Of a stretch of 64,000 bases of DNA, positions 39,102 to 63,359 are shown in pieces. Made by a program: the position numbers and the translations under genes. Under the pieces are notes generated by a model, which had not been told where the DNA came from, did not search any database, and saw nothing but the letters and a program-made list of their open reading frames with translations. Position 1 is the first letter of the stretch; each line of letters begins with the position of its first letter. The DNA comes from Mayamaea pseudoterrestris (lineage: Eukaryota; Bacillariophyta; Bacillariophyceae; Sellaphorales; Sellaphoraceae), in contig BROI01000005.1 of assembly GCA_027923505.1 (NCBI GenBank), positions 372,001 to 436,000 on the forward strand, in the 5' to 3' direction.

Positions 39102-39159
39102 GAATTATGCCGCTTTAAAGTAGTGTTAATCTATAATACTCAATATAGAATCACTCATA

Positions 39160-44654: not shown

Positions 44655-44707
44655 ATAAACAGATATCAAGTCAACAGCACTAACGTTACATCACTAGTCT
44701 TTTCGAA

Positions 44708-44956: not shown

Positions 44957-45289
44957 CTATAGATTCTTCTTGAATGACCGTTACAATTGGACGGAAACGA
45001 GATGGCTTGAGTTCTGCTTGTATATTATTAGAACACGACGATCGAGCGTTCCAACCAGAACGAGTTTATCCTCTTCCCCATGCCACAATTGGTGGGGGCG
45101 TACCGTTGAATGACATTTCCGTCATCGCCGAAAAAGAATAACAGCCCTTTTCTACAAACTGGAATTTCGGACGTACTCGAACGCCTTCCAAGCCTACCAT
45201 TCCACTCTCGTTGTCATCGAATATTCGTCTTCTATGCTTGAACAATATTTTAACTCTTGTCGCTACATCAAACAATACAATTCGAAATA
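44957..45289. other. Unresolved stretch with competing small ORFs
   Basis: A complete 55-codon plus-strand ORF (44,974-45,141) competes with a longer minus-strand frame (45,434-45,066). Neither has a recognisable domain and I cannot choose between them. Confidence 0.25.
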
Positions 45290-45541
45290 ATGAATGACTG
45301 TGGCATCTGCCATTGTTCAATGACAGAGAGACAGCGCTCGATGGTAAATTCCTGCGAACACGAATTTTGCATCCGTTGCATTCGAAAATGGAGCGAGACA
45401 GAGGCAAAGAAGAAACAATGTCCTCGTTGTCCATTATGTCGGAGATGGTACACGATAATAATCAAGTGCAAGGAATTGTCGAACCGCGAACTATTCACAA
45501 TAAGAGTTTTCGTAGAGCAACCGTCGGCAAATACAGAATAG
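45290..45541 (+). CDS. Small RING-finger protein (possible E3 ubiquitin ligase)
   Basis: The ORF is 83 residues from the ATG at 45,290. It is almost only a C3HC4-type RING: CGIC near the start, then CEH, FCIRC, and CPRCPLC. Spacing fits a RING-HC finger that would bind two zinc ions and recruit an E2 enzyme. The tail is short and basic. Stand-alone RING proteins this small occur in cellular genomes and are common in large DNA viruses; on its own this does not decide the origin of the island. The copy-1 version is broken. Confidence 0.65.
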   Translation: MNDCGICHCSMTERQRSMVNSCEHEFCIRCIRKWSETEAKKKQCPRCPLCRRWYTIIIKCKELSNRELFTIRVFVEQPSANTE

Positions 45542-45586
45542 AATACTCTTGTTGCTACTATCGTTGTATCATAGCGTCTTTACAAT

Positions 45587-45880
45587 ATGTCCAGGGCGTG
45601 TCGCACGCGTATACTTACAAAGTTGGGCTTGCACATGCGCAGAAACGAGATTTCGTCAACGCCTAACTCGAGCGAATCACTATCCGAGATTAAACGTTCC
45701 AACGGCTCGAGAAAAGCGCACGATTATCCAAACCTTCCGGATGCGTCGATGAGTCAATTGTCGGCGTGGCGTTCAGACAAATACTACCTATTATTCGCTG
45801 GAGCAGATGAATCGCGACTGATGCCTTTGCCTGCCGGCTGCGGAACTTTGTGGTGGATAAGGCTGGCATGTATGCGGTAA
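45587..45880 (+). CDS. Basic small ORF, doubtful
   Basis: 97 codons from ATG (MSRACRTRILTKLGLHMRRN), Arg/Ser-rich at the start. The end overlaps another open frame running to ~46,130 that enters the repeat module, so the true gene structure is unclear. There is no recognised domain. It could be a spliced gene or noise. Confidence 0.25.
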   Translation: MSRACRTRILTKLGLHMRRNEISSTPNSSESLSEIKRSNGSRKAHDYPNLPDASMSQLSAWRSDKYYLLFAGADESRLMPLPAGCGTLWWIRLACMR

Positions 45881-46000
45881 CCAAGTTATGGTCACAAGTT
45901 GAAAATAGCCAACGAAGCGATAATGTCAATGCATACAAGTATGTGTCAAGTGTCAAGTTATCCAACCTAAGAAAATCGACTTTCAATATAAACGAGTTGG

Positions 46001-46110
46001 CGAATTCGACCGTTGAGTTTTCTCCAAATGAGGAAATCGCCTTTGGATATAAACTAATCGTCAATTGTACTCCTTCAGGAACCGACAGCTATGTAACGAG
46101 GCAATTACGA
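46001..46110 (+). promoter_or_regulatory. Repeat module upstream of acidic gene 1
   Basis: One of several copies of a ~90-bp block: CGTTGAGTTTT, a GGAAATCGCCTTTGGATATAAAC stretch containing a TATA-like core, then TACTCCTTCAGGAACCGACAGC. It ends about 270 bp before the gene. Shared position ahead of several genes suggests a promoter or leader. Confidence 0.55.
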
Positions 46111-46225
46111 TTGTCCATAAAATCTAATCGCCTGTAAATCCCAGACAAACAAACAACACTTACACCTGAAGACGGTTGATACCTGTGTCGTACCACGATT
46201 ACTTGCGACATTTAACGGTTACGAT

Positions 46226-46248
46226 GTGGAGCTTGTACCAAGCTCCAC
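46226..46248 (+). repeat. Perfect hairpin upstream of acidic gene 1
   Basis: GTGGAGCTTG and CAAGCTCCAC pair over 10 bp around a 3-base loop. The gene starts 124 bp downstream. Confidence 0.85.
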
Positions 46249-46371
46249 CCGCAGTTCACACTAGCTGTAAGTCATTCGCCGATATTGTTGACTGATATAG
46301 AAGCCTTATAATTGGTGAACAATAATGATGATTGAATTGACAAAACAGGCAACAACAGATTAGAAGTGGCG

Positions 46372-46755
46372 ATGGAAGAGTGGGAAGAGGAGATTGTCTG
46401 GAATGGAACTGGAGCTGAAGGACAAAAGTACATGCAACACGATATAGAAATTTTGTTTCTGACCTGTGATGACTGGATGCGGCACGGTGGACCTGCCGCC
46501 GATCTCGTGATGCTATTCAATGAGATTCGAGACCAAGTGTATGGAATGCCAGAGTATTTTGTAGATGCCGTGAACGAAATGCTAGACAAGACAGAGCCAG
46601 AATTGTATCGTCGCATAGTATGTGAAGGCAGGGAAGGCAGTCATTGGTACTTGCTCAGGGTCATGAACCGTTTCGAGTGTTCTCCATACAATTGGGACGG
46701 AAATGAGTGGCGTTTAGCTAAATATAATCCGGAATTGATGGAAGACTTCACCTAA
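46372..46755 (+). CDS. Small acidic orphan protein, member 1
   Basis: 127 residues from the ATG at 46,372 (MEEWEEEIVWNGTG). It is the first of three tandem paralogues. Shared blocks are CDDWMRHGGPAADLV, a helix VNEMLDKTEPELYRRIVCEG, GSHWYLLRVMNR and a C-terminal WRLAKYNPE. The protein is strongly acidic and Trp-rich; no known domain was recognised. The first two members are very close (identical over most of the last 80 residues), so they arose by recent local duplication together with their upstream modules. Confidence 0.65.
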   Translation: MEEWEEEIVWNGTGAEGQKYMQHDIEILFLTCDDWMRHGGPAADLVMLFNEIRDQVYGMPEYFVDAVNEMLDKTEPELYRRIVCEGREGSHWYLLRVMNRFECSPYNWDGNEWRLAKYNPELMEDFT

Positions 46756-46883
46756 ACATGTCACGTTAATCTTGAGCTCTATCAAACTAGTACGGAAGAT
46801 GTTATTTTCATAAGTTACTACTGCAACCATCATGACGGGTTCGCCCAATAACTCAGTAGGCCGACATTCACAAAATCACGAGT

Positions 46884-46970
46884 TGTCGAATTCGAGCGTC
46901 GCCTTTGGATATAAACTAATCGACGATTGTACTCCTTCAGGAACCGACAGCTATATAACGAGGCAATTAC
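46884..46970 (+). promoter_or_regulatory. Repeat module upstream of acidic gene 2
   Basis: Second copy of the block, slightly shortened (TCGAGCGTCGCCTTTGGATA then TAAACTAATCGACGATT and TACTCCTTCAGGAACCGACA). Confidence 0.55.
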
Positions 46971-47087
46971 GATTGTCCATAAACTCTATTCGCCTGTAAA
47001 TCCCAGGCAAACAAACAACACTTACACCAGAAGATGGTTGATACCTGTGTCGTACCACGATTACTTACGACATTTAACAGTTACGAT

Positions 47088-47110
47088 GTGGAGCTTGTGC
47101 CAAGCTCCAC
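47088..47110 (+). repeat. Perfect hairpin upstream of acidic gene 2
   Basis: The same 10-bp arms as at 46,226 (GTGGAGCTTG / CAAGCTCCAC), with loop TGC instead of TAC. The gene starts 103 bp downstream. Confidence 0.85.
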
Positions 47111-47213
47111 CCGCAGTTCACACTAGCTGTAGTTATTTCGCCAATATTGTTGACTTTCATAAAAGCCTCCTAATTGGTGAACAATAATTCTGACTGAAAC
47201 AATAGCAATCGTA

Positions 47214-47639
47214 ATGGCGAAGTCAGGAAGCAAAACAGGCAGCAACCGATTCGAGGAGACGATGGAAGAGTGGGAGGAGGAGATTATCTGGAATGGAGGT
47301 AAAGAACACAGGTCTTTCAAATACAATTTGGACATCTTGTTTCTGTCCTGTGATGACTGGATGCGGCACGGTGGACCTGCCGCCGATCTCGTGATGCTAT
47401 TCAATGAGATTCGAGACGAAGTGTATGGAATGCCAGGGGATCTTGAAGATGCCGTGAACGAAATGCTAGACAGGACAGAACCAGAATTGTATCGTCGCAT
47501 AGTATGTGAAGGCAGGGAAGGCAGTCATTGGTACTTGCTCAGGGTCATGAACCGTTTCGAGTGTTCTCCATACAATTGGGATGCAAATGAGTGGCGTTTA
47601 GCCAAATATAATCCGGAATTGATGGAAGACTTCACCTAA
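47214..47639 (+). CDS. Small acidic orphan protein, member 2
   Basis: 141 residues from the ATG at 47,214. It has a longer, partly basic start (MAKSGSKTGSNRFEETMEEW), then the family blocks WEEEIIWNGG, CDDWMRHGGPAADLV, EPELYRRIVCEG, GSHWYLLRVMNR. It differs from member 1 mainly before residue 50. Function unknown. Confidence 0.65.
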   Translation: MAKSGSKTGSNRFEETMEEWEEEIIWNGGKEHRSFKYNLDILFLSCDDWMRHGGPAADLVMLFNEIRDEVYGMPGDLEDAVNEMLDRTEPELYRRIVCEGREGSHWYLLRVMNRFECSPYNWDANEWRLAKYNPELMEDFT

Positions 47640-47750
47640 ACATGTCACGTTAATCTTGAGCTCTATCAAACTAGTATATAAGTTACTACTGCAACCATCA
47701 TGACGGGTTTGCCCAATAACTCAGTAGGCCGACATTCGCAAAATCCCGTG

Positions 47751-47860
47751 TTGTCGAATTCGAGCGTTGAGTTTTTTCGAGTTCGGGAAATCGCTTTCGA
47801 TATAAACTAATCGACAATTTTACTCCTTCGGGAACCGACAGCTATGTAACAAGGTATTTC
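47751..47860 (+). promoter_or_regulatory. Repeat module upstream of acidic gene 3
   Basis: Third, more diverged copy: TTCGAGCGTTGAGTTTT, then GGGAAATCGCTTTCGATATA and TACTCCTTCGGGAACCGACA. It lies about 200 bp before the gene. Confidence 0.55.
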
Positions 47861-48066
47861 GATCGTCCGTCAATTCTATTCGCCTGTATTTACCCCTACA
47901 AACAATTACAGCTGATCATCAAGCATGTATGCCTTTCGCCAATATTGTCGACGTTGTGTCCACGAAATATCCTGAAATAGGTAAACGATAACAAAGGAGT
48001 ATTGACTACTGATGCCATAAAATCGCAAGCATACACATAGTCACTCTTATCGCAACAACCGCTGTA

Positions 48067-48519
48067 ATGGTCAACGTAGATCCCAACGCACATGACACTC
48101 GACTCAGAAGATTCGAAGAGGCCTGCGAAGAAGCGGAAGACGAGATCGTTTGGAACGCCGGAAACTACTACAACGACGAAACAGAGTACGCGCTATTTGA
48201 CGATGCGCATAACTTGGACCTTATGCTTCTGGCCTGTGACGATTGGATGCGTAACGGTGGATCTGCAGCCCAACTCGTGGAGCTATACAATCACATCCGT
48301 TCCGAGATGCCTGGAATGGGAGATGATTTCGTTACCGCCGTAAACGAAATGTTAGACACGACAGAACCGGAACTGTATCGTCGCATTGTATGCGAAGGCA
48401 GCCAAGGCAGTCATTGGTATTTACTTCCAATCATGGCCGACAACGATATCAGCAGAGAGTACACGTGGGATGGAGACGAAGGTCGCTTGCTCAAGTACGA
48501 CATGGAATGGATACGTTAA
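48067..48519 (+). CDS. Small acidic orphan protein, member 3
   Basis: 150 residues from the ATG at 48,067. It is the most diverged member, but keeps ACDDWMRNGGSAAQLVELYN, TEPELYRRIVCEGSQGSHWY and a Trp/Asp-rich end (YTWDGDEGRLLKYDMEW). It faces the minus-strand MBD-like gene, whose stop is only ~70 bp away. Function unknown. Confidence 0.65.
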   Translation: MVNVDPNAHDTRLRRFEEACEEAEDEIVWNAGNYYNDETEYALFDDAHNLDLMLLACDDWMRNGGSAAQLVELYNHIRSEMPGMGDDFVTAVNEMLDTTEPELYRRIVCEGSQGSHWYLLPIMADNDISREYTWDGDEGRLLKYDMEWIR

Positions 48520-48591
48520 TTGTTACTTGAATTATGCCGCTTTAAAGTAGTGTTAATCTATAATACTCAATATAGAATCACTCATATTATA

Positions 48592-49251
48592 TTATTCAGA
48601 TATGGACTTGATACGATTTCGTGCAGTGATCTCGGCGCGACTGCGATCGACCAAATCTATCTTACCCATTTCCTGGACAAACCTTTTCACTTCGACCGCA
48701 GAACGGAACTTGAATCCACATCTTGGTGAGATGTAATACTTGTCGACTTTTCTTGGTGCGTTGGCGCGAGGAACATTAAACTGTATCCACCCAGGTCCCC
48801 ATTGACGCAGACGATAGTCGGTTCTCAACGACGGTAACTGATACGACTTAGCATTTGCTTCCAGGTACTGAATTGCCTTTATATGAGGAGCATTGGCATC
48901 ACCAATAGGATTATCATACCTGCGAACAAATGTGAGTCTTTTTCCTTGTGTCTCCACCACAAAACCCATCCGGACACAACATAAGACTTCATGGTAGTTC
49001 ATATCATATTCCTTACGATGAGTTTGATATCTATCCCCAAGCAAATAATCAACAGTTTTAGAAGGATCCATCCTGACAGGCAAACGTAGCATCTTCTGTT
49101 TCAAAGAACGAACTCCACATCTTTCAATTGTCTCGAACAATCCTTCACTGGTCGTGTCCGAGAGAGCTTGGCAATACATCAAACTATTAACGTAGCCGTC
49201 GAATCTAAAACCGCACGCTTGTGGGTCTGATTTCATAATTTCCACTTTCAT
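48592..49251 (-). CDS. MBD-like protein, paralogue 1
   Basis: 219 residues from the ATG at 49,251. The C-terminal ~55 residues read as a methyl-CpG-binding domain: GPGWIQFNVPR, then KVDKYYISP, then GFKFRSAVEVKRFV (compare MeCP2 GWTRKLKQR, KYDVY, GKAFRSKVELIAYF). The three residues that contact methyl-CpG in MeCP2 (Arg of the first loop, Asp before the Tyr, Arg of FRS) all have counterparts. A second block shared with the other paralogues lies in the middle: VRMGFVVETQ, then LTFVRRYDNP. The N-terminal part is unrecognised. The role as a methylated-DNA reader is inferred from pattern only. Confidence 0.6.
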   Translation of the reverse strand: MKVEIMKSDPQACGFRFDGYVNSLMYCQALSDTTSEGLFETIERCGVRSLKQKMLRLPVRMDPSKTVDYLLGDRYQTHRKEYDMNYHEVLCCVRMGFVVETQGKRLTFVRRYDNPIGDANAPHIKAIQYLEANAKSYQLPSLRTDYRLRQWGPGWIQFNVPRANAPRKVDKYYISPRCGFKFRSAVEVKRFVQEMGKIDLVDRSRAEITARNRIKSISE

Positions 49252-49524
49252 AATGGATATGGCGTGTATACGAAACGCCCGTTAACGAGCATGTATTATG
49301 ACTAGACTCAGATTAATTCGCATTCACGCACTCAGACGTTCAAAGGCCTTGATATCAATATTTAGGCTAATACAATAAAATTCAACGGCAATTTTTCGGG
49401 CAAGTCTGCGACCGGAAACACCGGACGGGGAAACGACTCGTCGTCTTACATATCCTTAAGTAATGAACACATTCGTTCAACATATTCCAACGGCCCAAAT
49501 ATTAGTCGAGTGCAAGAATTTAGT

Positions 49525-50295
49525 CTATAGACAACAAGACAAAGCATGCTCCTCTATTTCCCAGTCACTTCCGTCGAATTGATCGAAAAGGCTTATAAAG
49601 TAGTTTACCTGATCAAGTGATATGAACATGAAACCAAATTCGGGAGAGAAGAAGTATTCGCGTCGTGGCATTGTATCATTGCCTGGTATTTGCAATCTTG
49701 TCCAACCGATACCCCATTCTTTACGACAACCAAGCAATCTAAGTGGAAATGTAATCGACCCACCCACTGAAGAGTTTTCGATTGTTGCTAGTCTTGGCCA
49801 ACGCAAATTGACAACCGGAACCTTGTAACGTCGAACAAAATAGTAAGTGTCGGAAGCAACATCCTGTATCATTTCGAACCCCATTGTCACATGGGTCGTC
49901 ATGTAGCGGGATTGTTTCGCGATAGCATCACGAAACCAAGGACTGCGGAAATCGCAAACTCTATCGATTACTTCGTCAATGCTATGGTCAGAATAATCCC
50001 CGGAGATTAGATCCAGTAGATACACTTCGAGACCAGTGCCCTTTCGTCGTAAATTATGCAATATTGTTAATGCGTACGTCCGAAAGACAATAGCATCAAC
50101 ACAGTGATCAGGCAACTCCTCCGCGTATTCATGTAGATGTGACCACAAATAAGCAGGACCACAGTATTTTAGATAACGAAAAAGGCTCAAACGACGCGAA
50201 CGGGCGACTGCAACATGATACAAGTACACTGTAATCCAACGCGGAAATGGTGCGTCATTCGGTGGAAACGGTCGTGTTTGAACGTCAATGTACAT
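49525..50295 (-). CDS. MBD-like protein, paralogue 2 (degenerate motif)
   Basis: The first ATG in frame is at 50,295, giving 256 residues. It shares the middle block (VTMGFEMIQD, then YYFVRRYKVP) and a C-terminal MBD-like stretch GIGWTRLQIPG, RREYFFSP, GFMFISLDQVNYFI. The Asp and the FRS Arg are replaced (REYFF, FIS), so methyl-CpG binding as in MeCP2 is unlikely even if the fold is kept. The N-terminus has an additional helical domain with many Tyr and Leu residues. Confidence 0.5.
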   Translation of the reverse strand: MYIDVQTRPFPPNDAPFPRWITVYLYHVAVARSRRLSLFRYLKYCGPAYLWSHLHEYAEELPDHCVDAIVFRTYALTILHNLRRKGTGLEVYLLDLISGDYSDHSIDEVIDRVCDFRSPWFRDAIAKQSRYMTTHVTMGFEMIQDVASDTYYFVRRYKVPVVNLRWPRLATIENSSVGGSITFPLRLLGCRKEWGIGWTRLQIPGNDTMPRREYFFSPEFGFMFISLDQVNYFISLFDQFDGSDWEIEEHALSCCL

Positions 50296-50601
50296 AATAC
50301 ACCAAAACAAACAAACAGATCACTCGATTGCTTCATATGATGCTGAGATGCGTTTGATATATCTTGCACTCCTTCAAAACTTATGTCGCTCTAAACGATC
50401 CAATATATCTTACACGAATCCCACCATACGATATGTAACGACTGTACAAGACATCGGGTCGTGCTACTTTACTCATGTAAAAAATTTCGAATCCTTCAAA
50501 TTCAGTCATGTAGAAATACTAACATGTAGATATACGCATAAACAGGATCGAAACGATCCATTTGAATATATCTTCCTACTGTAATTTAAACGTTATGCAA
50601 C

Positions 50602-51381
50602 ATGGACTTACATCCCTTCTTCGGTCCTCCAGTACAATATTACAGACATGGAGAGCCACCCACCGAAATTCGAATGCTGCATGGCTGTAATCTATTAGAT
50701 GTATCGATAGAAGAGCTTCCAGGACCTGATGGAGCATACACACATTGTGCTAACGCATGTCTTTTCGATGCTGCCTTAGCAAAGGCACATTTCGCGAGTA
50801 CAAACGATTGGATTGTCAGTAAAGCCCATAAAATGATAAATTGGCTCATTCAAAATCATCCTATAGATCAGATAACAGAACAAGCATTGGAAGATTTGAT
50901 ATTCAGAGAGTCACCAACATATCATTCTTCGCCCTTTTTCGAGCGCTTTCAATTCATGCTAGATCACGCCAGGATGGGGTTCAAACTTTATTGGAATAGA
51001 GAGGCCTTACGACTTGTGTTAGTTCGATCATTCTGGGCGAAACCTACGGATCAGTTTTCACCCCACCCAGTCATTTCTCACATACGCAACGACGACGAAC
51101 AGACCTGTGAACTAAGTCCAACCATGAACGCGCTAGGCGAATGGCGATCTGATTGGGGAGTTGGATGGGTTACAACAACCATACGCTATCGTAACAGTTC
51201 TCACATACACATATTTTACGCGTCTCCTGAGCTAGGATACCTATTTAGCAGCCACAACGAAGTCGATGCATATATTGCAGTTGTGAAGAGAATTGCAGAC
51301 GAGGACGAGTTACCGGATATCGAAACATCAACACTGTTTGTCATGGCTCAAGGGGAAGTACCAGGAGCAGGAGCAGCCTAG
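50602..51381 (+). CDS. MBD-like protein, paralogue 3 (most diverged)
   Basis: 259 residues from the ATG at 50,602. Kept features are the middle block ARMGFKLYWN, then LVLVRSFW, and a C-terminal GVGWVTTTIRYR, IHIFYASP, GYLFSSHNEVDAYI. As in paralogue 2, the DNA-contact Asp and FRS Arg are missing. The N-terminal ~110 residues carry a Cys/His-containing patch (HGCNLLDV, THCANACLF) with no clear zinc motif. It is assigned to the family by order of blocks, not strong identity. Confidence 0.4.
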   Translation: MDLHPFFGPPVQYYRHGEPPTEIRMLHGCNLLDVSIEELPGPDGAYTHCANACLFDAALAKAHFASTNDWIVSKAHKMINWLIQNHPIDQITEQALEDLIFRESPTYHSSPFFERFQFMLDHARMGFKLYWNREALRLVLVRSFWAKPTDQFSPHPVISHIRNDDEQTCELSPTMNALGEWRSDWGVGWVTTTIRYRNSSHIHIFYASPELGYLFSSHNEVDAYIAVVKRIADEDELPDIETSTLFVMAQGEVPGAGAA

Positions 51382-51598
51382 TGGACCGATACGTATAAAT
51401 AAAATTTGCATTGGTAAATATAAGCGATACACCATCGCGACAACAAATCTTCACAATGTCACATGAGTACTTGGAGGACTCAGTCAACTGTTGTCGCCTT
51501 GCTCAGTCGCGATAAATCAATGATTGTTACCGACCCTTTCATAAAACGATCGCATCAATGCCCTAACATAAAATCAATTCTTTACATCAACAAGTAGC

Positions 51599-52135
51599 AT
51601 GCCATCGAAAGGATTCAAGCTCAAACGCGGAACTCCGGAAGTCGGAGACCGAGTTGCGATACACACCAAAAATCCTTCCGACGCGGCGTACAAAAACGGA
51701 GTAGTTGTTATTGTGGAACAGAGACCAAGTTACGAAGCTCATAACAACGACGACAACGAAGATATCGCTGTTCTTAACACTCACCTGGTCGTTGTTTTCG
51801 ACGACGACAAGCGCAAGGAAGATAGCGCATGGTTCAAATGGCACCCCAAGCTCGACCGCCTCATGGTACCTGACAAATCTGTTGATGTAAATCCTCAAGT
51901 AAGTCATTCAATGGGAAATACAATCAGCGGAAAACGCGTCGACGACCGTTGGATCACGACTGCTCATGACAAGAAGCTAAAGACATCGCACAATACTACG
52001 ATCAAAAATGAGATATCCCACGTCGCGCAATCGATCGGCGTTCGTACAGACGACAACGAAGCAAAAGCAAAGGATGAACCAGCAGGTTGGATGAATCGCA
52101 TGGTGTCAAAAGCGAGCAAATTCTTCCATGCTTGA
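51599..52135 (+). CDS. Basic protein with a Tudor/SH3-like N-terminal region
   Basis: 178 residues from the ATG at 51,599. Residues 10-90 look like a small beta-barrel: VGDRVAIHTKNP, YKNGVVVIVEQRP, LVVVFDDDKRKED, FKWHPKLDRLMV, as in Tudor/chromo-barrel proteins that begin with G(D/E)xVxV. The second half is charged and disordered, with a C-terminal amphipathic segment WMNRMVSKASKFF. If the barrel is right, a histone- or methyl-Lys/Arg-binding role is possible. The resemblance is structural impression only. Confidence 0.4.
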   Translation: MPSKGFKLKRGTPEVGDRVAIHTKNPSDAAYKNGVVVIVEQRPSYEAHNNDDNEDIAVLNTHLVVVFDDDKRKEDSAWFKWHPKLDRLMVPDKSVDVNPQVSHSMGNTISGKRVDDRWITTAHDKKLKTSHNTTIKNEISHVAQSIGVRTDDNEAKAKDEPAGWMNRMVSKASKFFHA

Positions 52136-52259
52136 AGCAACACACAGAGGGTACTGTTTAGTAGTAGTCTATTAAACAGTCTAAGTATGAGCTTATAGAC
52201 GGGTTGACATCGATAGTTCGAAACTTCCTTTGCCTTTATAGGAACGATTATTCTATCAC

Positions 52260-52994
52260 TCAAGTGCCAGTGCGCTTGCGTTTGCCTTCCTTTTTCGAGT
52301 GACTACTGTCCATTGACTTTCGGAAATGTTGGAATCGAGCGTTACTTAGCGTAAGGGAAACCATGGTGTCCAAAATGTGGCGTCTCTCAAGGTTGCGTCT
52401 TTCTTTCTGACTTGCGTCCAGATTGCTATCTTCGATCAGGCATTGAACGAAGCGAATTCCACCATCCTGCATAAAACGCAGCATGTACTTCTCAATGTTC
52501 GGCAGCTCTACCGGTCGAGTATAACCATCTGTGTTTTGCACTTCCATCCGTCCCGAAAAGCAATCGAAAAAGAAGAATGGCAACATCGTCAATACTTGCA
52601 GGCGTGTTTTGTCATCCGGATACTTTTTCGCGCCGTGGAGTAAACCTTCTAGAGATGAATAGGGCAACAATGGCGGCAACATCGGTTGACGGTTTCGTAA
52701 AGTGACGTCAAACGTACGGCAACAAAAGGCCAAGCCACGCTGAAACACTTCCTCGTACTGGAAATAGAAGCCGATCAGGAAAAGCGTTACCTTGACGAGT
52801 TTGAAAATTGCCATCCCCTCTTCTTCCTCCATTGGATGAAGTTCGATCGCCCGGATTCTTTCGAGAATGTCATGTTCTGTTGTGTCCTTGCGAAAACAGC
52901 TCGTGTCCAGGATGTGGTCGAGAGTGAGTCCACTTGTTCCATGCACCACACTTGTCTGGGTCTCTGATTTTACCATGCTTCCTTTGGTTGACAT
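52260..52994 (-). CDS. Orphan paired-family protein 1
   Basis: Not recognised. The frame extends to 53,141, but the first ATG is at 52,994 (MSTKGSMVKSETQTS), giving 244 residues, close to its neighbour. Blocks shared with the neighbour are LDHILD, IAIFKLVKVTLFL, FYFQYEEVFQRGLAFC, YSSLEGLLHGA, LTMLPFFFFD, MLRFMQDGG and FQHFRKSM. It is helical, with several Cys and aromatic residues. The tail is basic (KKEGKRKRTG), possibly a nuclear signal. Confidence 0.6.
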   Translation of the reverse strand: MSTKGSMVKSETQTSVVHGTSGLTLDHILDTSCFRKDTTEHDILERIRAIELHPMEEEEGMAIFKLVKVTLFLIGFYFQYEEVFQRGLAFCCRTFDVTLRNRQPMLPPLLPYSSLEGLLHGAKKYPDDKTRLQVLTMLPFFFFDCFSGRMEVQNTDGYTRPVELPNIEKYMLRFMQDGGIRFVQCLIEDSNLDASQKERRNLERRHILDTMVSLTLSNARFQHFRKSMDSSHSKKEGKRKRTGT

Positions 52995-53263
52995 TCGTGC
53001 TGCAGTTGTCGGTGTTGTGGTTGATAATATTGTGGTTGAACGTTGAACGTGAGTCTGGACTCGCGGTTTTGCTTGAAAGTCGCCGGGGCACGAAGTGCTG
53101 CTACGACGCGAATTCTTAGTGCTGCTACGACATGATTTCAAGTGATTTGAAGCGACAGAACGAAATTGTCTAGCATAGTTTATTAGTTAGGGGATTTTTA
53201 GCAATTTACAACATGTAGATTGGACTGAAGGGACATCAATAAGATTACTGAATATTTGCAACT

Positions 53264-54013
53264 TTATCTACCATTGGGGTGTTCATATTTATACACCAGC
53301 TTGGCTGGTTCCTCGTCAAATGTCCTATGCAATTCTGCCATGGTGTCTTTCAGCCCTGGCAGCAGGTCTCCGAAATGTTCGAACCGTGTATTGTCTTCAA
53401 TATATGAAACAATGGCCTCAATCAACCAGAGTCTGCCCGCTCTGGTATAAAAACGTTCACGTTGCTTCATTTTAAATGGTGGAACGTCTCGAAGTAAAAG
53501 GTTCGCTCCACCATCCAGCAGAAAACGCAACATGTCATCCTCTGCGGTCGGAAGCAATTCGTGATCCTTGTCCGGCATCGCATATTCGTATCTATATTCG
53601 TAGAAGAAGTAGGGCAACATCTTCAACACATTCACATGTGTTCCAAAATCCGAATGTCTGGCAGCACCGTGAAGTAGCCCTTCCAGCGATTGGTATGGCA
53701 ACGCTGGCTGCTTGTATCGAAAACATTCCTCGAAAACATAACTGCAGAATTGTACGCCGTTCTTGAACACTTTCTTATAGTGAAAGTAGTGGGTCGTCAG
53801 ATGTAAGGCCAGCTTTGTCAACTTGAATACTATCGCCTCTTTCCCATAGCATGTTTCCTCGAAAAGAGTCTCGATTGCCTGCAACCGCGCGAGTATGATC
53901 TCCTCTGGCGAGTCGTAATGGAAGCCACGTATGTCCAGAATGGCGTCAAGTGTGATATCTACTGATCCTTCTGACGAATCATCATCGCTGTCTTCTCCCC
54001 TATTCGCATTCAT
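53264..54013 (-). CDS. Orphan paired-family protein 2
   Basis: Not recognised. 249 residues from the ATG at 54,013. The start is acidic (MNANRGEDSDDDSSEGS), followed by the shared blocks LDAILDIRGF, IVFKLTKLALHL, HYFHYKKVFKNGVQFC, YQSLEGLLHGAAR, LKMLPYFFYEY, MLRFLLDGGANLLL and FEHFGDLL. The segment LLDGGANLLL recalls an ankyrin turn, but no repeat array follows. It is a clear ancient tandem duplicate of protein 1. Confidence 0.6.
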   Translation of the reverse strand: MNANRGEDSDDDSSEGSVDITLDAILDIRGFHYDSPEEIILARLQAIETLFEETCYGKEAIVFKLTKLALHLTTHYFHYKKVFKNGVQFCSYVFEECFRYKQPALPYQSLEGLLHGAARHSDFGTHVNVLKMLPYFFYEYRYEYAMPDKDHELLPTAEDDMLRFLLDGGANLLLRDVPPFKMKQRERFYTRAGRLWLIEAIVSYIEDNTRFEHFGDLLPGLKDTMAELHRTFDEEPAKLVYKYEHPNGR

Positions 54014-54429
54014 TTTGTGTGCTAAACACTTCAGTAATGGAAAGAAGGGATTGTTGTTTGTTGGTCGCTCACTATCTCACGATATTTGTGAACGTCAAGT
54101 TTTCTGCGGATCATGATCGTCAACGCTTATCATCAACCCTAACTCGCTACTACACAATCGCGCTATAACGGTACGACAACAATCACGACTGGCACCTCTG
54201 CACGAGCCGGCGCCTTTTCGTCAACTAATTTGGCGACTATAATATAACTTCGTAGCGTATTCCCGCGACAATTATTCGTGCGAACCTCTTTACGTCAACA
54301 ACCGTTGAACACGAAGCAGGATTGATATGCTTCAACGCCACAAAGTAACATCGACCGTTGAAACAACGTTTAGCGAAAGCGTCAGAGAGTAATACTCAAT
54401 CACTTGCATGCCTCATGCAAATATAAGAC
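54014..54429. other. Divergent promoter gap
   Basis: This 416-bp gap lies between two divergent genes and presumably holds both promoters. No ORF, module or hairpin was recognised. Confidence 0.4.
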
Positions 54430-55297
54430 ATGGAGACCCACATACCTAAAATTCTGTTCCTTGGTGCGTCTTATACTGACATACGACCGTATCTGCAAGC
54501 CATTGACCCGATCGTATCGTGTGGTCAAAATCGGACACTTGAATTGGATCGCGTCATTGCCTGCGTCGAGTATAATCACATTTCGGAAATCGACGGCCGA
54601 GACCTGTCACGGATTGTCGAAACTGAGCGAGAATGTAACGTCGACGTATACACTGTATCCCTTGCGGAAGCAGCAAAATACAAAGAAAGTCGTCACTACA
54701 GCGGTAATTTTAACAACCATCGCTTTGTTTCAAGTTTAAGACGGCATTTTGTCAACGCAGCATTCGATCAGGTGACCTTGGATTATTATTGGCAACCAAA
54801 TTCAGCCATGCGGGAACACATGCGACCTGAGTTTTTCTCGAAAACACTACCCGAGTTAGCGATACATATGCTCAGTCCTCACGCATGTGTCTACCTTCCA
54901 TTCTGCGTTCATACGCTCAAGGAGACTCTGATACACAAGGCTGTACTGTCGCGACACTATACTGTAACATATCTACCAGAAAGCGAATTGGCAGAAGTAT
55001 TTATCTGGCGGGGTACACAAGCAATTGATGGCGACATAATGCAGGAGGTATTCGGAAAGAATAAATCACAGGTAACGAAACGGTAATGTTCAAGTCGAAA
55101 TTCACGCGACGTCTAACCATGTATTTGTTTATTCTCAGGAAGATAAATACTGCAAGATATCAAAGCAAGCAATTCGTCAGGACGACGAATACCCCGAATT
55201 ATCCAACAAGGATGTCATACATTTCTGTCAAACGATCGGCGACCTGAAATCAGTCCGTTTCATCAAACTAGAACGTCATGATACGGACCGCACTTGA
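54430..55297 (+). CDS. Two-exon orphan protein, possible Rossmann-like start
   Basis: Not recognised. Exon 1 (54,430-55,071) and exon 2 (55,139-55,297) join in phase 0 at CAG/GTAACG...TTCTCAG (67-bp intron), giving 266 residues. The N-terminus PKILFLGASYTDI looks like the first strand and Gly turn of a nucleotide- or SAM-binding fold, but no binding motif is complete. The middle has FVNAAFDQVTLDYYWQP and HACVYLPFCVHTLKETL, with Cys and aromatic residues. It is convergent with the Helitron gene, whose stop lies only 70 bp away, so it probably belongs to the same island. Confidence 0.5.
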
Positions 55298-55366
55298 GCG
55301 AATATATCATACGGAGTACTAATTTTAATTGTGTTATCTTTACATCGAATCGTATGTCTGTATTCG

Positions 55367-58300
55367 TTAATTTACAACACCTTCGAACAAATGCAACACC
55401 TGCTCGTCCGTGGCAAGAACCTTCGTACGAAAATATTCCATCATGTCGAGATACTCTTCGTTAGGTTCAAAATCAAGGTCAACAGGCACAGGTGCCATGA
55501 GAAACAGTCCCGCAAGTGACTTGACACGCGACAACGCAACATAAAACCAGTTCTTCATACCCTTATTTGCCCACTCGACAACAACCAACTCATCCAATGA
55601 TTTACCTTGCAGCTTATGCACTGTAGTCGCATGATTGATGACGACCGGAAACTGCTGAAGCTTTATTCCAACTTCTTTCCTCCGTTGAGACTCTAATCCG
55701 ACATCAAGAGGAAAACGCACCTTATAGTTCTTTCCTTGCGACTCCAAACGAAACCGACCTTGAAAGCGTCCACCGATCCACTTTAACTGTAAGTGGTCAA
55801 CGTCAGCAGCGTCGACCGAGTTGACCCAATATCCGTTAACCTGAATTGGCATTAATCTCACACCGGGACGAAGAACAACCTTGTCAAGTACCGCTGTTGT
55901 TCCATTGGCTATTCCATTCCGGACATCCTTGTTCTGGTTACTCATCAACGGACATCCTTTGTAGAGTTTCAAGAACGGATCGCATCTTGTGTCAGCTGAC
56001 TTGACTTCCGATTCACCGCATTTCTCGAACAATACTTTACGCTGTCCAAAGCACAACTTCTGCTTTGTGCTACTCCATACTGCACCAGCCTTAATAACAA
56101 CAGCAGACAATGGTATGGTTCCAGGCTCGGCGGTTGCATTTGAATGATAGGTAGCTAAATATCGCTCGTATAAATGCTGATTGATAGCATCACGCGACTT
56201 GTTGTAACACACCGCATATTGAATCATATTCGGATTCGATATCTGCAATGGACCCCTTTGAATGTTTTGAGGGTCGTAGCTTCCAACAACTCGAGAGTTT
56301 AACAGACATCTATGCTCATCGGAAAGTCCTGTTTTTCTAAGCGAATCCATAATCTCACCGTAAACTGGATCATTTACGAACCGCCATTTTCCTTCTAGTT
56401 CCACCATACAATTCACCCCCAACCACCAAGGTACGCATGTCTTTTCTCTGTACAAGCTATGTTTTCCGATAGGTTCAAGCTGACGGAAATCGCCCAGCAT
56501 GACAACTGGAAACTTGCCCATCAATGTATCTCGATCTTCCGTTAATTCTCTCAAATTGGAGTCCAAATCCTCAAGGAAGCTAGCATCGGCAAACGAAATC
56601 TCGTCAATTATGATCATTCTCGTGTCCTTAAACGATATTCTACTATCGTTGCTTATATCGCGTTTCTGTACGCCCTTGTGCATGGCGATCTGAAACTCGG
56701 AGTGACTAGTTGTACCTCCAATCTCACACGCTGCTGCACCCGTCAACGCAGTGAGTCTGATAGTGCCTTGAGTAAATTCATGATCAATCATCAAGCTAAA
56801 CGATTTTGCGTAGGTAATGAATTCTTTCAATATCGCCGACTTTCCTGCTCCAGCAGGACCAGTGACAAACAGCCGCAGAGGAGATCCATCGACCGATAGA
56901 GCTCGGCGTGCGAGCATCCTTAACTTGATAATATTCGTCTCGAAGTCTCCTCGCCGTGCATCATTTTCTTTCCAGTCATTTCGGGCCTCTTCCATGAAAC
57001 TCAAGACATATGTTGAAGCCAAAATATGAAAACACATCTGCTGTTTCTTGTCAAGTCCACAAGCTATGCTCCAATCAACGATAGATTTCCAGCTTCCACT
57101 AGCTATTACACCATTATTAATGGGTTCCACAATTAGTAATGGTGTAGCTTCGTTTTCGATATCCGCTGCATGATCAGTTGACAAATCATTGAATTTAGAA
57201 AACACGATGCTGTTCAGCTCCGATGTACACGAAACAAAACGCGTTGCATTCACTGTTGTGTGTTCAGGTTCAGAGACAGCAGATGTTGACGAGTCGAAAT
57301 GCAAAAGTGGTTCCGATTGAATGTCGCTCGAAAATGTTCCAGCTGTGCATTGCAAATTAATCTCCGGTGGCAATTCCTGACTGAAATTAAACGAGACAGG
57401 CTCTGCTTCCAAACCTTGAAACGCACTACTCGCGAGATATTGGTATAATTTGGCCATCTGCTGGTGACGTTGCATATTGTCGAATTCCTGATTGTCAATT
57501 TCTGAAGGACCAGATTCAGCGAGTTCAGTTTCCAAGGATACTAAATTAGGTGGAACCTGCGACGCATGCGAATTAGCCAAGGAAACTATATGATCAGCAA
57601 TTGTAAACATTTCGTCACTTATTTGTCCAGATTTCTTCGCTTCCAAGAACGTTGCTTGATAAGTACCAAGACTGGTCATGTCGCCTAAGGACCTGAAGGG
57701 CAGAAACAGAATCATAAATTTGAAACAATATTCCTCCTTGCTCTTAAAATCAGGGCTTGTTTCGTCGGGGTCAGTATGAAGAGACGTCAGAAAAGAAGAT
57801 GTATTACCCAACCAAGACCATGAAAATACAGGAACGGCCTTGACACCCTTACGCATAACAACCGACTGACACTCTGCCATCGGATGAGATTCGAGTAACT
57901 CGTATCGTTCCTCCATGACATCAAGTTTACTTGTTGCAACCACCTGGTATCCCTCGAAATAAGAATAGAGACATTCGTTCTCACATGTAACAGGTCTATG
58001 CAAATAATCAAGGGCTTTGTGGGTAATGTACGTTTTCTTGTTCCGTGTCTTGTAACTCATTATGACAAACTCGTTCTCCAACATCTTTTGCAGCCCATAA
58101 CATGGCAAATAGACGGCATCATGCGAATACTGAAAGCGCGACCCAACTAATGCAAGGTGCCGCGCCATAGGTGCAGCAACAATATGTGTACCAGTGTGGC
58201 TATAAATCCCCGCAAGCAAACGGCGAAATCCAACGCGATGGTCATCAGAAAGCGGATCCTCGAGTGTCTGATCGCGCTGAAGCATCCTGCATATTACCTG

Positions 58301-61141
58301 CGCGACTAACTGAAATGCCATCTGCTCTTCCTTTTGCTGGGACTTCACCTGATAACCAGTAACATACATTACAGCACGCCCGCTTATTCCAAAGGTTACA
58401 TTATTGTTGCAACACAGCAACTGAGTGATACCGTCATTGTTGCGGTTCATGAACACATCCCCAATATCACGCTTGGGTTGGAGAGTGAACATATACTCAA
58501 TACTTTGGAGCCCCATAAAATCCGACCAAACGTCAGGTTTTTCACAATACACAAAGTGGTCGCTAGAGGACACCGCCTCAGGAAGGTTAGCAAAACATTC
58601 ATCGCCTTTTTTGAAACATCTGGTTGTGTGTGTGGGAAAATGCGAGTTCACAGCAACATTAGCAGCGAAACGTCTCAGACATGACTCCTTCGACTCTTCG
58701 ACGTCTGAATACCAACTGAAATTCTTCTGATCTTCGTAACATTGATAGTTAAGACGCGGGACTGACTTTTCGGGGTAGTCAAACTTTGAATATCCTTCTC
58801 CATGTATATTGCTACCAAAATGGGTATCCAACGCACGCTTGATAATATCTTGCACCGTGAAAACAGTCTTGCACATTCGACAAGACGCAATAGTACCCTT
58901 GTGCGTAAGACATTGCTTCTTGTGACGCATTTGACGTATACAGTCATTGCCAACTGATTCGATTTCACCTTGTACATGACTACCTGTCCACAATCGCTTC
59001 CGCCTGCAGTCGCAATCGAAAACAGAATGCGAAGATAATTTCCCTCCGGTGCCAAAATCACCAAACAACGAAGCTGAACAAATTCCAGAGTAATATTCCA
59101 AAACATTGGAAGCAAGACGAGTAAATGACGCGGGTCCCGTTTTTTTCTGTAACGCCAACTGAACTGCAGGCCAGTGCTTAATAAACAATAGAAAATGGCC
59201 ATGAAGCGTTTTGCGGCCCTGTTCTTCCGTCGCCAAACACCACGCCACCATGTCTCCGAATATGCCGATTCCCTTACTCTTCTGATTGTCTATATCCCAA
59301 TTGAACAAATGACGAATAACAGCTTTCACAACGCGTTCATATTCCTCAGCGCACAATCCAGGATGCTCGTACCGAACATCCTGACGCATCCGAAAGTTGT
59401 CGATAATCTGTCGGTCAGTAAGGCTCGCCACGTTGACTGTGCTGTCGGGATTATAATTTTCTTTGCCGAGGGCGTAAACAACAATGCGATAGTTGCGCTG
59501 GTCGTCCGGTGAAACCGTTAGAAAGATTGCGGGCATCCCGAATTTCATGAGGAACGAGAAATATACTTTTCGAGCCTCCTGCGACGCTTCATTTGTATGC
59601 GGCAAGTTCTCACATACCGCTGTTATACTGCGCAGAAAACGATGCTCTGTAGTACTTCTTCGGCTTACACCATGCTGTTGCTGACAGTCTGTAATCGCCT
59701 TTTCAAACTGATCGTGGGACATGGTACCATATTTGTCTGCAATGGAACGACCATCTGTTTGTTTTATATTACACTGAATCACAACACTTTTAAAGATGAT
59801 CTCCTTGAGAATAAGATTTTCGATAACCAAAACAAACATAGGTCCATGAAAGACAGATTTGCGATGCCGAAGATACTTCTTGTAAACATCGATACGATTT
59901 CGACTGCATTGATTCTTGTTTCCTTTTCTCTTCTTCAATTTCAAAACGGCCGGGTCATCAGCTAGACCGGTAAATCCATACGGAAACTGCAAAATGAAGG
60001 CATCTGCAATGGTGTCCCCCTGAAAGTCCATGAATTTATCTGCAGAAGGCCGAGCGTGCATCTGCGCCTCGAACTTCCCTCCATTATGTTCCAATACGTA
60101 TCTGCGGAATTCATCCTGTGTCTGAAACGTTCCATTCATGCGACCAGGAAGTGTGACATCAGGAAAGACATGGGTGATACTCATTTCGTTCTCCACATCA
60201 ACGCTTACACTCCTTTGCCATTCCACCTTATCTTCGACAATTCTCGGTATTGGCAAGCTGGCAGGGTCGGGTATATGAAGGTCCCTGTAGCGGAAATTGT
60301 TCACCTTCAACCAATTCCAAGCATTTATCACCTTTTCCGGATCAACACGGGTCTTTTGTAATACTTTGGCTTTCTGCGTCGATGTAAAGGGTCCGCACAA
60401 GACAACAAGTAGTCTCCCATGCAAGCCAGAATCCTGTATTTGCATCATATTCGCAACGTTCGTCTCAGGATGATTTTTTAGTAGTGTAGTCCATCCTTTT
60501 ATTTGTTTGTGACAGCCTCCAAAGAACACCCATGTTTGACAATGAAGTTTGGCTTTGCATACCAATGCCAATTCAACTTCGTTAAGACACTTGAGCTCTT
60601 CAGGTTCATGACCGATAACGTAGCCGTTGGCAATTGACTGCCGCGGCGGACGGCGTCTGTCTGCATGCTTCACTTCTGCGTTAGTCTCAAGGTCAGCCAG
60701 ACACTTACGACATATGCTTATTTCATTCCTTTTGTTCACAAAAGCATCAGGTGATAGAACATAATCCTTTAACGTAGGATGAGTTGCAGTGTATTCATTT
60801 AACAACTCTATTGGATAAACATCCGAAAGATCAGTCTTCCGCATCTTAGCATTCGAACAAAGAGACGCAATTCTTGCAACTGATACCATTTTATGCCAAT
60901 ATGCTTCATCTGGTATTCCGTCACAAACGCAGCAGAAAACTGCATGAAGAGTTTTAGTCTGGGGCTCTTTAATTACATAACTTTCGAGCTCCTGAGAAGC
61001 CCTGGCTAAAAGTTCGCGTTTGGTCTCCGTCGATGGTATTGCGAGACGCATTATTGCAAAAAGATGTAAAACGAATGTGATATGCATGACACAGACAAAG
61101 ACATATGTATTATGATAACACAGCCTTCTACAAATAAACAT
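55367..61141 (-). mobile_element. Helitron Rep-helicase, intact reading frame
   Basis: A single uninterrupted 1,924-codon frame encodes the rolling-circle transposase of a Helitron. The first ATG is at 61,141, but an inner ATG at ~61,051 (MRLAIPSTETKR) may be the true start. In order it has a Cys-rich N-terminal part (CCVCDG, ICRKCLADL) and a Helitron-like N domain. The HUH site follows at about residue 650 (TLHGHFLLF), then a zinc-like cluster (CDCRRKR, CLTH, CRMCK) and the YxxxY nucleophile region at ~925 (MYVTGYQVK). The PIF1-type helicase starts near 1,425: Walker A TGPAGAGKS, Walker B IIIDEISF, LGDFRQLEP, TVHKLQGKS, YVALSRVKS. No endonuclease domain was seen. Element termini were not found. 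Confidence 0.9.
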
Positions 61142-61158
61142 ATCGAGCGTTGAGGCAA

Positions 61159-61237
61159 AATTTCAAATTTCGCCAGCACGTACCAGCAAAACGATTCCTT
61201 CTCGTTAGGCGACGCGAGCGTGCTGGCGTTTGAAATT
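61159..61237 (-). repeat. Long inverted repeat upstream of the Rep-helicase
   Basis: AATTTCAAA + TTT bulge + CGCCAGCACG (61,159-61,180) pairs with CGTGCTGGCGTTTGAAATT (61,219-61,237): 19 bp, all paired apart from the 3-base bulge, around a 38-base loop. It lies about 20 bp 5' of the ATG at 61,141. Confidence 0.85.
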
Positions 61238-61448
61238 GCTGTATAGCGGAATTTATCTATTTCGAATCCGTCAAACTACTTTTCGTGTCGAACGACAAGT
61301 GCTTTTCAGTTCATACGCTAACAAAAGGGGTTGTTCCGCACACGGTCGGCACAGTGTGGCCACAGGTCCAACACGATACACAAATCGCGAAGCCAAAAAC
61401 AACCGTCTACAAGCTAAATAACAATAGAAACACATACTATGTTGCCGA

Positions 61449-62402
61449 TTACTTAACTACGTCGACCCATTGATATCTTTTACGTCGAGCAATACCCTCC
61501 TTTTGTTGACGGCGATCTATCGCAATATGTCTGCGTGCCTCGAACTCCGACCTTGCAGGATTACGTTCCCCGCCGTACCGATGGAACAACGTCAAATATC
61601 TCTTCACTTCCGGAATGGATCGAAACTTGAAACCAAAATGATTTGTGTAATAGTAAGTGTCGAAACGAGCTTGCCTTTCCCCATTTCGCGAGACGCGCTG
61701 AACACGAGACTGTATCCATCCTCTATCCCAAGATATTTTCCTGCAATTGACCGGAGCGAAGAACTTACTTCCACACGATTCTCGCAAGCGGCTGTCCATA
61801 ATTACTCGCAGCGTGCGATATCTCTCTTTACACTCACCATCCGGAAGATAACGAAAGAATCGAGATAAATACGGCTTTTCGAATTCCTTATCGACCGTAT
61901 ACCCCATGCGCAGAAGTTCGTGAGCTCGCTCGTAAACAGCGTCAAACCGACTTCGAAACCTGTTATCCACAATACAGAATATGAAGTCCGTCAATGCATC
62001 CCCGCCTTCCTGGAACACTGATTCGTTGTCATTCGCAAGCTTCACCACATCGTTTACACCCGATGATCGAATTATATCGACGAGGGAGTGATTCAATACT
62101 TTAGATTCAGCCAACAACACTATAAACCATTCCAACAGAAGAGGCAACGCTTCAGTCTCTTCAGCCGAAACCGAAGTGCTATCCCATGAGTGACCTCTTT
62201 CAAGAAGCATCAGAGATGATCCGATCAAGCAAACTAGACGAGCCAAATGAATCGAGATGCGAAGGTAAACGGAGATGTCAAGATCGCTATCGCAGTTTAT
62301 CAAAGGACAACGATCGCTATCGCAGTTTATCAAAGGAGGACGACTGATGTTGATGGATCCGTTAGCGACCCGGCAGGAATCGCGCGCCGGGTGGTCGTCC
62401 AT
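61449..62402 (-). CDS. MBD-like protein, paralogue 4
   Basis: 317 residues from the ATG at 62,402. The C-terminal part has the clearest MBD-like pattern with paralogue 1: RGWIQSRVQR, RFDTYYYTN, GFKFRSIPEVKRYL, retaining the Arg/Asp/Arg contact positions of MeCP2. A middle block LLRMGYTVDK, YLSRFFRYLP corresponds to the MGF...RR block of the family. The N-terminus contains a duplicated decapeptide (PLINCDSD twice) from a 30-bp DNA repeat; the real start could lie downstream. The tail is basic (GIARRKRYQW). Confidence 0.55.
   Translation of the reverse strand: MDDHPARDSCRVANGSINISRPPLINCDSDRCPLINCDSDLDISVYLRISIHLARLVCLIGSSLMLLERGHSWDSTSVSAEETEALPLLLEWFIVLLAESKVLNHSLVDIIRSSGVNDVVKLANDNESVFQEGGDALTDFIFCIVDNRFRSRFDAVYERAHELLRMGYTVDKEFEKPYLSRFFRYLPDGECKERYRTLRVIMDSRLRESCGSKFFAPVNCRKISWDRGWIQSRVQRVSRNGERQARFDTYYYTNHFGFKFRSIPEVKRYLTLFHRYGGERNPARSEFEARRHIAIDRRQQKEGIARRKRYQWVDVVK
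62282..62337. repeat. Short in-frame tandem repeat (30-bp period)
   Basis: A 26-base stretch at 62,282-62,307 recurs at 62,312-62,337, giving the repeated decapeptide near the start of paralogue 4. Confidence 0.9.
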
Positions 62403-62558
62403 TATTTCGCTGAAGCCGAATCACGTCAAGCAACTCAACGGTCGCACGATATCGGGAATCGCCATAAATGGCGACGTCTGTATAACAACGCTAAGTCACT
62501 AAGAACAAAGCCTGTAAATAGCCAACGATACATCATCGATGACAATGTCTACAATTAT

Positions 62559-62705
62559 GCGTTGAGTTTTTCCGATCACGAAATTTGCTTTCCATATAAA
62601 CGAGATGTCGAAATCGAGCGTTGAGTTTTCTTGAACAGAGGAAATCACCTTTCGAAATAAACGAACTGACGATTTCTACCCTTCGGAAACGAAGAGATGC
62701 TGTTA
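62559..62705 (+). promoter_or_regulatory. Double repeat module in front of paralogue 5
   Basis: Two copies in tandem: one from 62,559 (GCGTTGAGTTTTTCC...CCATATAAACG) and one from 62,612 (GAGCGTTGAGTTTTC...CTTTCGAAATAAACG, then TACCCTTCGGAAACGA). It is the same block as before the acidic genes 15 kb away. The second copy runs into the start codon at 62,697. Confidence 0.55.
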
Positions 62706-63359
62706 CGAGTTGCACAAGTGCCAGCTTCAAAATGTTGTGCACACGGAAAATTACCCAACATTGCAATTAACTTCATGTACTGTGTTGCAGTGTCCAAAGT
62801 GTACAACATGTCGCTGATACAAGCGATTGCGAGACACGGTTCCCAAAGTCTATGCAAAATGATTCAAACATTGACTTGCTTGAGCACAGAACATCTCACC
62901 CAAGCTGTAATGAATAACGTAAACGACAACCTCCACAAGGACTTCAAGGAAACATGGACGCGAGTGGAGTCTCACGTGCAAATGGGTTTTGGAATGGAAC
63001 TATCTAACAATGAATACATGTTGTTTCGAACTCACATGCACGACAATGCGTCAGACACAAATCACTATGGAACTCTTCTTCGGTCGTTAGAGTCGACGAA
63101 AGATTGGGAAAAACTCAAATACTCCTGTCCCATAAACAACAAAACGATGAATTGGAAAATTGGCTGGATACAAATACGCAAACGACGACGCGCGCAGTAC
63201 GGCAGGAAACATAGATACGACAAGTTTTACTATTCACCGAAATTTGGATACAAATTCCGTTCGATCGTCGACGTCAAAGCGTTTGCAACCCATGTCGAAG
63301 AAGCGCAATCAAGTTTTGGCAACAAATCCGAAACAGTGGCTCAAAATAAAGTGCGATAA
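62697..63359 (+). CDS. MBD-like protein, paralogue 5
   Basis: 220 residues from the ATG at 62,697. The middle block is VQMGFGMELS, then MLFRTHMHD. The C-terminal MBD-like stretch is IGWIQIRKRRR, RYDKFYYSP, GYKFRSIVDVKAFA, keeping all three MeCP2 contact positions. The first loop is unusually basic. The start codon sits inside the end of the repeat module, at the place where the other modules read ATG-TAA. This suggests that the module is a promoter plus leader, which here became fused to the gene's start. Confidence 0.6.
   Translation: MLLRVAQVPASKCCAHGKLPNIAINFMYCVAVSKVYNMSLIQAIARHGSQSLCKMIQTLTCLSTEHLTQAVMNNVNDNLHKDFKETWTRVESHVQMGFGMELSNNEYMLFRTHMHDNASDTNHYGTLLRSLESTKDWEKLKYSCPINNKTMNWKIGWIQIRKRRRAQYGRKHRYDKFYYSPKFGYKFRSIVDVKAFATHVEEAQSSFGNKSETVAQNKVR

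Follow-up and report, generated by a model that had tools for sequence, protein, structure and literature searches.

Two arginine fingers and an aspartate contact methyl-CpG in MeCP2. Mammalian MBD3 is a retained paralogue of the methyl-CpG-binding domain (MBD) type that does not read methyl-CpG, and we know of no instance in which mammalian MBD3 or MBD5/6 lies in an island with reading sisters. Arabidopsis MBD5 and MBD6 (AtMBD5/6) are readers of methylated CG that recruit the J-domain protein SILENZIO (PMC8616336), mammalian MBD5/6 fail to bind methylated DNA (PMC2917364), CpG methyl-binding domains occur in some DNMT5b proteins (PMC9998398), one candidate with an MBD is reported from a kelp (PMC6916402), and retrotransposons in dinoflagellates and charophytes carry acquired cytosine methyltransferases (PMC5890265). 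The terms MBD, methyl-CpG, and methyl-binding occur nowhere in the available text of PMC3145265. Here we describe five MBD-like genes in a gene island of the diatom Mayamaea pseudoterrestris (assembly GCA_027923505.1; 30.6 Mb on 41 contigs). The window analyzed is the 64,000-nucleotide stretch of contig BROI01000005.1 (C5:372001-436000), and the island spans ~30.4 to ~63.4 kb of it. We hold with moderate confidence that duplicating islands of this kind combine putative methyl-CpG readers with nonreading paralogues that may be their partners.

The five genes are named by their first window coordinate, and all are single-frame. The 48592 gene (48592-49251, minus strand, 219 residues; MBD ~48658-48801), the 61449 gene (61449-62402, minus strand, 317 residues; MBD ~61587-61724), and the 62697 gene (62697-63359, plus strand, 220 residues; MBD ~63156-63293) keep the reading residues. 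These residues are lost in 49525 (49525-50310, minus strand; MBD ~49576-49716), which has 261 residues counted from a TTG and its first ATG at residue 6. The Asp and the second Arg are lost in 50602 (50602-51381, plus strand, 259 residues; MBD ~51139-51285). The initial annotation had listed these same five open frames, and the MGF...VRR block and C-terminal stretch that it saw in all of them are common to the five by alignment. Alignment, single-protein searches, and profile comparison place them in one family. Each protein begins with a helical part, continues with an MGF...VRR hairpin, and ends in an MBD-like domain, and the columns MG, R, W..GW, G, F, S, and V are invariant in the alignment of all five. 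As a single-protein query, 48592 matched 62697 (1.5e-13), 49525 (2.5e-6), 61449 (1.9e-5), and 50602 (1.9e-3), and 49525 matched 50602 at 1.7e-6. Queried with 50602, the genome search gave matches to 49525-type genes (2.3e-7 to 2.9e-6) and found no closer counterpart elsewhere. No relative of the N-terminal helical part and beta hairpin was found. The literature matches listed, in their available text, contain no MBD family of such architecture and no MBD genes in a Helitron.

Pfam, profile searches of the PDB, structure comparison, and controlled profile-profile comparison all support the MBD-like character that had been assigned to the C-terminal domain. The Pfam MBD model (PF01429, curated cut-off 21 bits) matched 48592 at 32.8 bits and 61449 at 23.9 bits, both above the cut-off, and 62697 at 19.9 bits, slightly below it. 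It is matched above the cut-off at seven places genome-wide, and at E ≤ 1 by six of nine family members. The 49525 and 50602 proteins have no Pfam match at E ≤ 1 and are linked to the domain by profile comparison. A family profile (A2) was built from nine family rows and no known MBD protein; one row is a doubtful protein at C5:78.4-79.0 kb. All 15 of its PDB matches at E ≤ 1 are MBD domains, the best being AtMBD6 (2.4e-4). The profile of the residue-keeping type gave 28 PDB matches, the best at 3.8e-5; 25 are named methyl-CpG-binding, two are unrelated, and 1ub1 (attachment region binding protein) is presumably a MeCP2 relative. The initial annotation had suggested a profile comparison with Pfam MBD; the one made here, with the other MBD-type proteins of the genome, joined both types to them: the kept type at a probability of 98.1 and the residue-poor type (profile A5, first row 49525) at 95.7 over 52 columns. 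The two types matched each other at 99.4 over 206 columns, N-terminal part included. Comparisons with two unrelated island families, run as controls, scored 0.1 and 0.3, one control profile (A8, family D) having taken in a C5:74 kb gene as one row. Because 50602 alone reached only 45.5 against the host MBDs, its placement rests mainly on its likeness to 49525.

Structure prediction, another check proposed at the outset, was informative for one of the two proteins modeled. The AlphaFold (AF2) model of 48592 has the beta sheet and helix of the MBD fold and lies nearest to AtMBD6, whereas the quality of the 49525 model is too low for a verdict on its fold. A Foldseek search of the PDB with the 48592 model ranked AtMBD6 first (probability 1.00, template modeling score 0.74 by target, 43% identity over 44 columns), AtMBD5 second (0.95), and MeCP2 fourth (0.75). 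Arabidopsis MBD5/MBD6 are thus the nearest match of the MBD part in both sequence and fold, with the layout GW...R...D.YY..P..G.KFRS in common. The proteins described here differ in having another N-terminal part, a setting in multigene islands, and binding that is predicted, and 48592 has a shorter loop between the first Arg and the Asp. The five genes are probably a branch of the MBD superfamily with an architecture of its own; the moderate confidence stated above applies to this placement jointly with the whole explanation.

The island has relatives elsewhere in the genome. A colinear inverted relative on contig C8 (398.6-409.5 kb) carries families D and E, a RING gene, family B, and the 48592, 49525, Rep, 61449, and 62697 types (families B to E and the Rep gene are described below). 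It was read as far as 409.5 kb. A third, more distant cluster at C5:77-80 kb contains a 49525-type and a 48592-type gene, which flank the doubtful member, and family E lies alongside. Contig C20 holds a close copy of one repeat unit. Open island-type members number 11: the window holds five, C8 four (a fusion tail counted), and C5:77-80 kb two, besides the doubtful protein and two broken copies; these genome counts are lower bounds, the search scoring best candidates only. The island is therefore an old duplicated block, copied between C5 and C8 and more distantly C5:77-80 kb, with one unit on C20. The family had first been read as a local expansion. Duplication in place did occur, but the main paralogue types predate the island: they recur on C8, and two of them are found at C5:77-80 kb.

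The split into three genes that keep the Arg/Asp/Arg positions and two that do not, proposed from the window alone, was upheld by the alignment and extends to the relatives. R162, D170, and R183 (48592 numbering) are invariant in 7/7 proteins of the 48592, 61449, and 62697 types across the three clusters. In 49525 the two Arg columns hold G and I, and at the Asp column the choice of alignment decides between R and a gap. In 50602 the Asp column is H and the second Arg is S; the first Arg column is ambiguous, being a Y flanked on both sides by Arg. Each 49525-type protein, one per cluster (49525 itself, the C8 counterpart, and the C5:77-kb gene), has all three reading positions changed. Net charge over 45 domain residues follows the same division, being +5 to +12 in all seven kept proteins and -2 to +1 in 50602 and the three proteins of the 49525 type. 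Since the 49525 type is residue-poor in all three clusters, its loss predates the island copies and is old. In a full-length tree of 12 rows, the doubtful protein among them, the 49525 type and 50602 formed a clade of four with support 99/99 and long branches. A domain-only tree placed 50602 elsewhere and grouped the other three residue-poor proteins at 89/83, and the history of the 50602 loss is less sure. The doubtful protein (C5:78.4-79.0 kb, minus strand) was absent from genome searches with family members and has no Pfam match; in profile comparison it scored 63.2 to the kept type, 20.2 to the residue-poor type, and 0.1 to a control. Mammalian MBD3 and MBD5/6 are likewise retained MBD-type paralogues without methyl-CpG reading, and the architecture here differs from theirs. 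The split state is thus known among MBD proteins, and what is unusual here is its age, conservation, and setting.

The four types that have a C8 counterpart are under purifying selection. The ratio of nonsynonymous to synonymous rates (omega) between the C5 and C8 copies was 0.17 for the 48592 type (Fisher p 1.6e-16), 0.19 over 156 codons for the 49525 type (p 6.3e-12), 0.34 for the 61449 type (p 7.5e-5), and 0.22 for the 62697 type (p 2.8e-15). Synonymous divergence (dS) is only 0.17 in the 61449 pair, compared to about 0.6-0.9 in the other pairs. The value for the 49525 type indicates that it is not simply decaying, though the C8 copy it was compared with has become a fusion tail. An old, conserved, and linked division into readers and nonreaders, together with the association with a Rep gene, would make this locus more than a local expansion.

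The explanation that we favor assigns different roles to the two types. Methylated CpG is the most likely target of the 48592, 61449, and 62697 types, whose Arg fingers, Asp, and basic domain are kept. Most or all of the reading residues, and the positive charge as well, are gone from the 49525 type and 50602, which are most likely nonreading; their action would go through the N-terminal part that both types share, either in partnership or in competition with the readers. The two types lie together in an island that has been copied between places, on C5 and C8 with the Rep/Pif1 gene. The proteins would presumably be nuclear, and they may have an effect on silencing. Three matches to the C5-methylase family in the genome (194, 90.5, and 27.7 bits) make a DNA methylation writer plausible in the host. 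An old split into readers and nonreaders that is under selection in linked islands could serve as a natural series on what becomes of MBD proteins after reading is lost.

Several results weigh against this explanation. In a PDB search with the profile of the residue-poor type, no MBD was matched up to E 10, and the one match (E 0.8) was unrelated. The 48592 model has a mean predicted local distance difference test score (pLDDT) of 69.9, and its best Foldseek E-value is 0.15, with none ≤0.001; the 49525 model, at a pLDDT of 48.3, is unfit for fold judgment. The tree program issued a warning about where 50602 joins the C5:77 kb gene, the 50602 branch is long, and only 44% of the domain-only bootstrap trees unite the residue-poor proteins in one group. 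The doubtful protein lacks the reading residues, carries a charge of +4, and sits on a long branch among the kept types. Constraint on the MBD part of 61449 alone is nonsignificant (omega 0.65, p 0.30). The 49525 omega was measured against the C8 fusion tail, so that it is ambiguous which copy is constrained, and no omega is obtainable for 50602, which has no counterpart. Finally, the island shows no CpG depletion (observed/expected 1.19; the value for the first 29 kb of the window is 1.01). It thus bears no trace of long-term CpG methylation, which speaks against a heavily methylated island, and the idea of a methylation scar was rejected.

A plainer account is the birth and death of MBD genes in a repeat-rich region, with residue-poor paralogues that would bind other DNA or protein and form no partnership. 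We regard this as rather unlikely, although tandem and segmental duplications, uneven identity, and broken copies all fit it. The left half of the island is a tandem direct repeat of 9.4 kb (30439-39851 and 39846-49304, 97% identical), with the 48592 gene near the end of the second copy. A broken 48592 copy in the first unit (39233-39760, minus strand) has 60% identity and six internal stop codons. The two units differ by 167 substitutions (81 transitions and 86 transversions) and 88 indels (51 of one base), differences that look partly like assembly error, and the broken state of the 39.2-kb and C20 copies is therefore not relied upon. The existence of six MBD-type places outside the islands (C25, C37, C16, C34, and two on C1) also agrees with birth and death. 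Those on C25, C37, and C16 match Pfam MBD, those on C34 and at C1:2.34 Mb were assigned by similarity, and the C1:131 kb place has no Pfam MBD match. Against this account, kept and 49525-type genes are co-located in all three clusters, a weak argument as linkage may persist by chance. Two pairs of the outside genes lie on different contigs with high protein identity, C25/C37 (L003, L004) at 88% and C34/C1 (L076, L077) at 98%, and are either duplications or haplotypes.

A mobile or selfish island, in which a Rep/Pif1 protein moves the unit and the MBD-like cargo senses or blunts host silencing by methylation, is an unlikely alternative. The gene in question (55367-61141, minus strand, 1924 residues) matches DUF6570, Helitron_like_N, and PIF1 in Pfam, and has HGH at residue 647, YVTGY at 926, the Walker motif GPAGAGKS at 1428, and DEIS at 1513. 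The window copy is thus an HUH, paired-tyrosine Rep fused to a Pif1-type helicase, with the same domains and motifs as a Helitron Rep/Helicase. Unlike a Helitron, its Rep part was found at only two places in the genome, C5 and C8, both within the paralogous islands. Because dispersed copies are lacking, we call the gene Helitron-type and do not call the island a Helitron, and the description of the family as lying beside a transposon changes: the Rep/Pif1 gene is here an island gene and not a dispersed transposon. Helitron ends are a 5' TC and a 3' hairpin-CTRR. An inverted-repeat scan for element ends returned 17 pairs with short or weak arms (25-34 nt, 71-85% complementary), none at both island edges, and no target duplication or empty site is in evidence.

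Mobility is favored by the confinement of the Rep part to two islands, by its motifs on C5 and its constraint (omega 0.07 over 625 codons between C5 and C8), and by the close C20 copy of one unit, which is 100% identical over 440 bp at the left end. The host neighbors beside 62697, the only side with both flanks read, also differ, a PqiA-domain protein on C5 and a ParA/NUBPL-type ATPase on C8. It is disfavored by the finding of just two Rep places, one of them shortened and without the HUH motif, and no Rep match in the third cluster or the C20 unit. The C8 copy also lacks a PIF1 match. Relative to C5, ~9.3 kb is missing on C8 between the window equivalents of 49996 and 59262, and the break lies at TATTC, found in both C5 parents. 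A 783-residue open frame spans this site (L071:5015-7366), with the Rep N-terminal part, lacking HUH, followed by a 49525-type tail. The deletion thus fused the N-terminal part of Rep in frame to a 49525-type gene. A bolder version of the mobile account, which we consider quite improbable, makes the islands mobile units that carry their own readers, matching nonreaders as decoys or partners, and a Rep/Pif1 motor, and that manage how the host reads methylation; if it were true, the Rep N-terminal part and a nonreading MBD would have merged into one protein on C8. The retrotransposons of PMC5890265 likewise bear methylation-related genes on repeats, those genes being writers and the ones here predicted readers in a Rep-gene island. 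The island system could show whether mobile DNA carries methylation readers.

Descent of the island from an integrated virus is very improbable and was rejected: lower guanine-plus-cytosine (GC) content (about 44% versus 48-49%), single-frame genes, and many families without a Pfam match speak for it, but scans of IMG/VR with 48592, family E, family C, and 62697 (six short peptide patterns each, which reach close relatives only) found no relative, BFVD held no match to the 48592 model at E ≤ 0.001, and the Pfam-scanned proteins included no hallmark, none having been sought by name.

The remaining island genes fall largely into small families, and the island as a whole has 44.1% GC compared to 48.6% in the first 29 kb of the window. 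Family B has three members on the plus strand, at 46366-46755, 47214-47639, and 48067-48519, the last with a C8 copy (omega 0.14); at E ≤ 1 its profile matched a single PDB chain, a designed protein. Family C consists of 52260-53141 and 53264-54013, both on the minus strand, and these are the only two genome places found. Family D (32275-33339, plus strand) has copies in the second repeat unit, on C20, and on C8, and one weak match on C12. Its profile matched in the PDB only KaiA clock proteins, weakly (three entries, E 0.24-0.41) and probably by chance. A gene at C5:74 kb is weakly like family D (18%; E 0.001 in a single comparison) and was missed by the family D genome search; membership is not claimed. 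Family E (33511-34236, minus strand) has further copies in the window at 42907-43632 and elsewhere at C5:80.8 kb (L072) and on C8 (L083). Pfam matches are lacking for families C, D, and E and for the genes 51599 and 54430.

Some stretches are more alike than their surroundings. Between the window and C8, identity is 98-99% over 34018-34468 and drops to 73-86% within 0.5-1 kb around it; over 61512-62112 it is 91-95%, dropping to 85-89% and 61-75% around. Both stretches are perhaps products of gene conversion between islands. The stretch C5:74001-82000 (L072), at 39% GC, has a CpG observed/expected of 0.72, unlike the window island at 1.19 and the lone low value among eight stretches measured. 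The host is photosynthetic, with 53 genome stretches (exons counted apart) matching the light-harvesting chlorophyll-binding (LHC) family; one LHC protein is matched best by multidomain LHCI chains and, if only single-domain chains are considered, by fucoxanthin and related proteins. Just upstream of 62697, the segment 62513-62692 is 71-79% like the family B repeat stretches at 36505-36693, 45900-46085, and 47752-47835.

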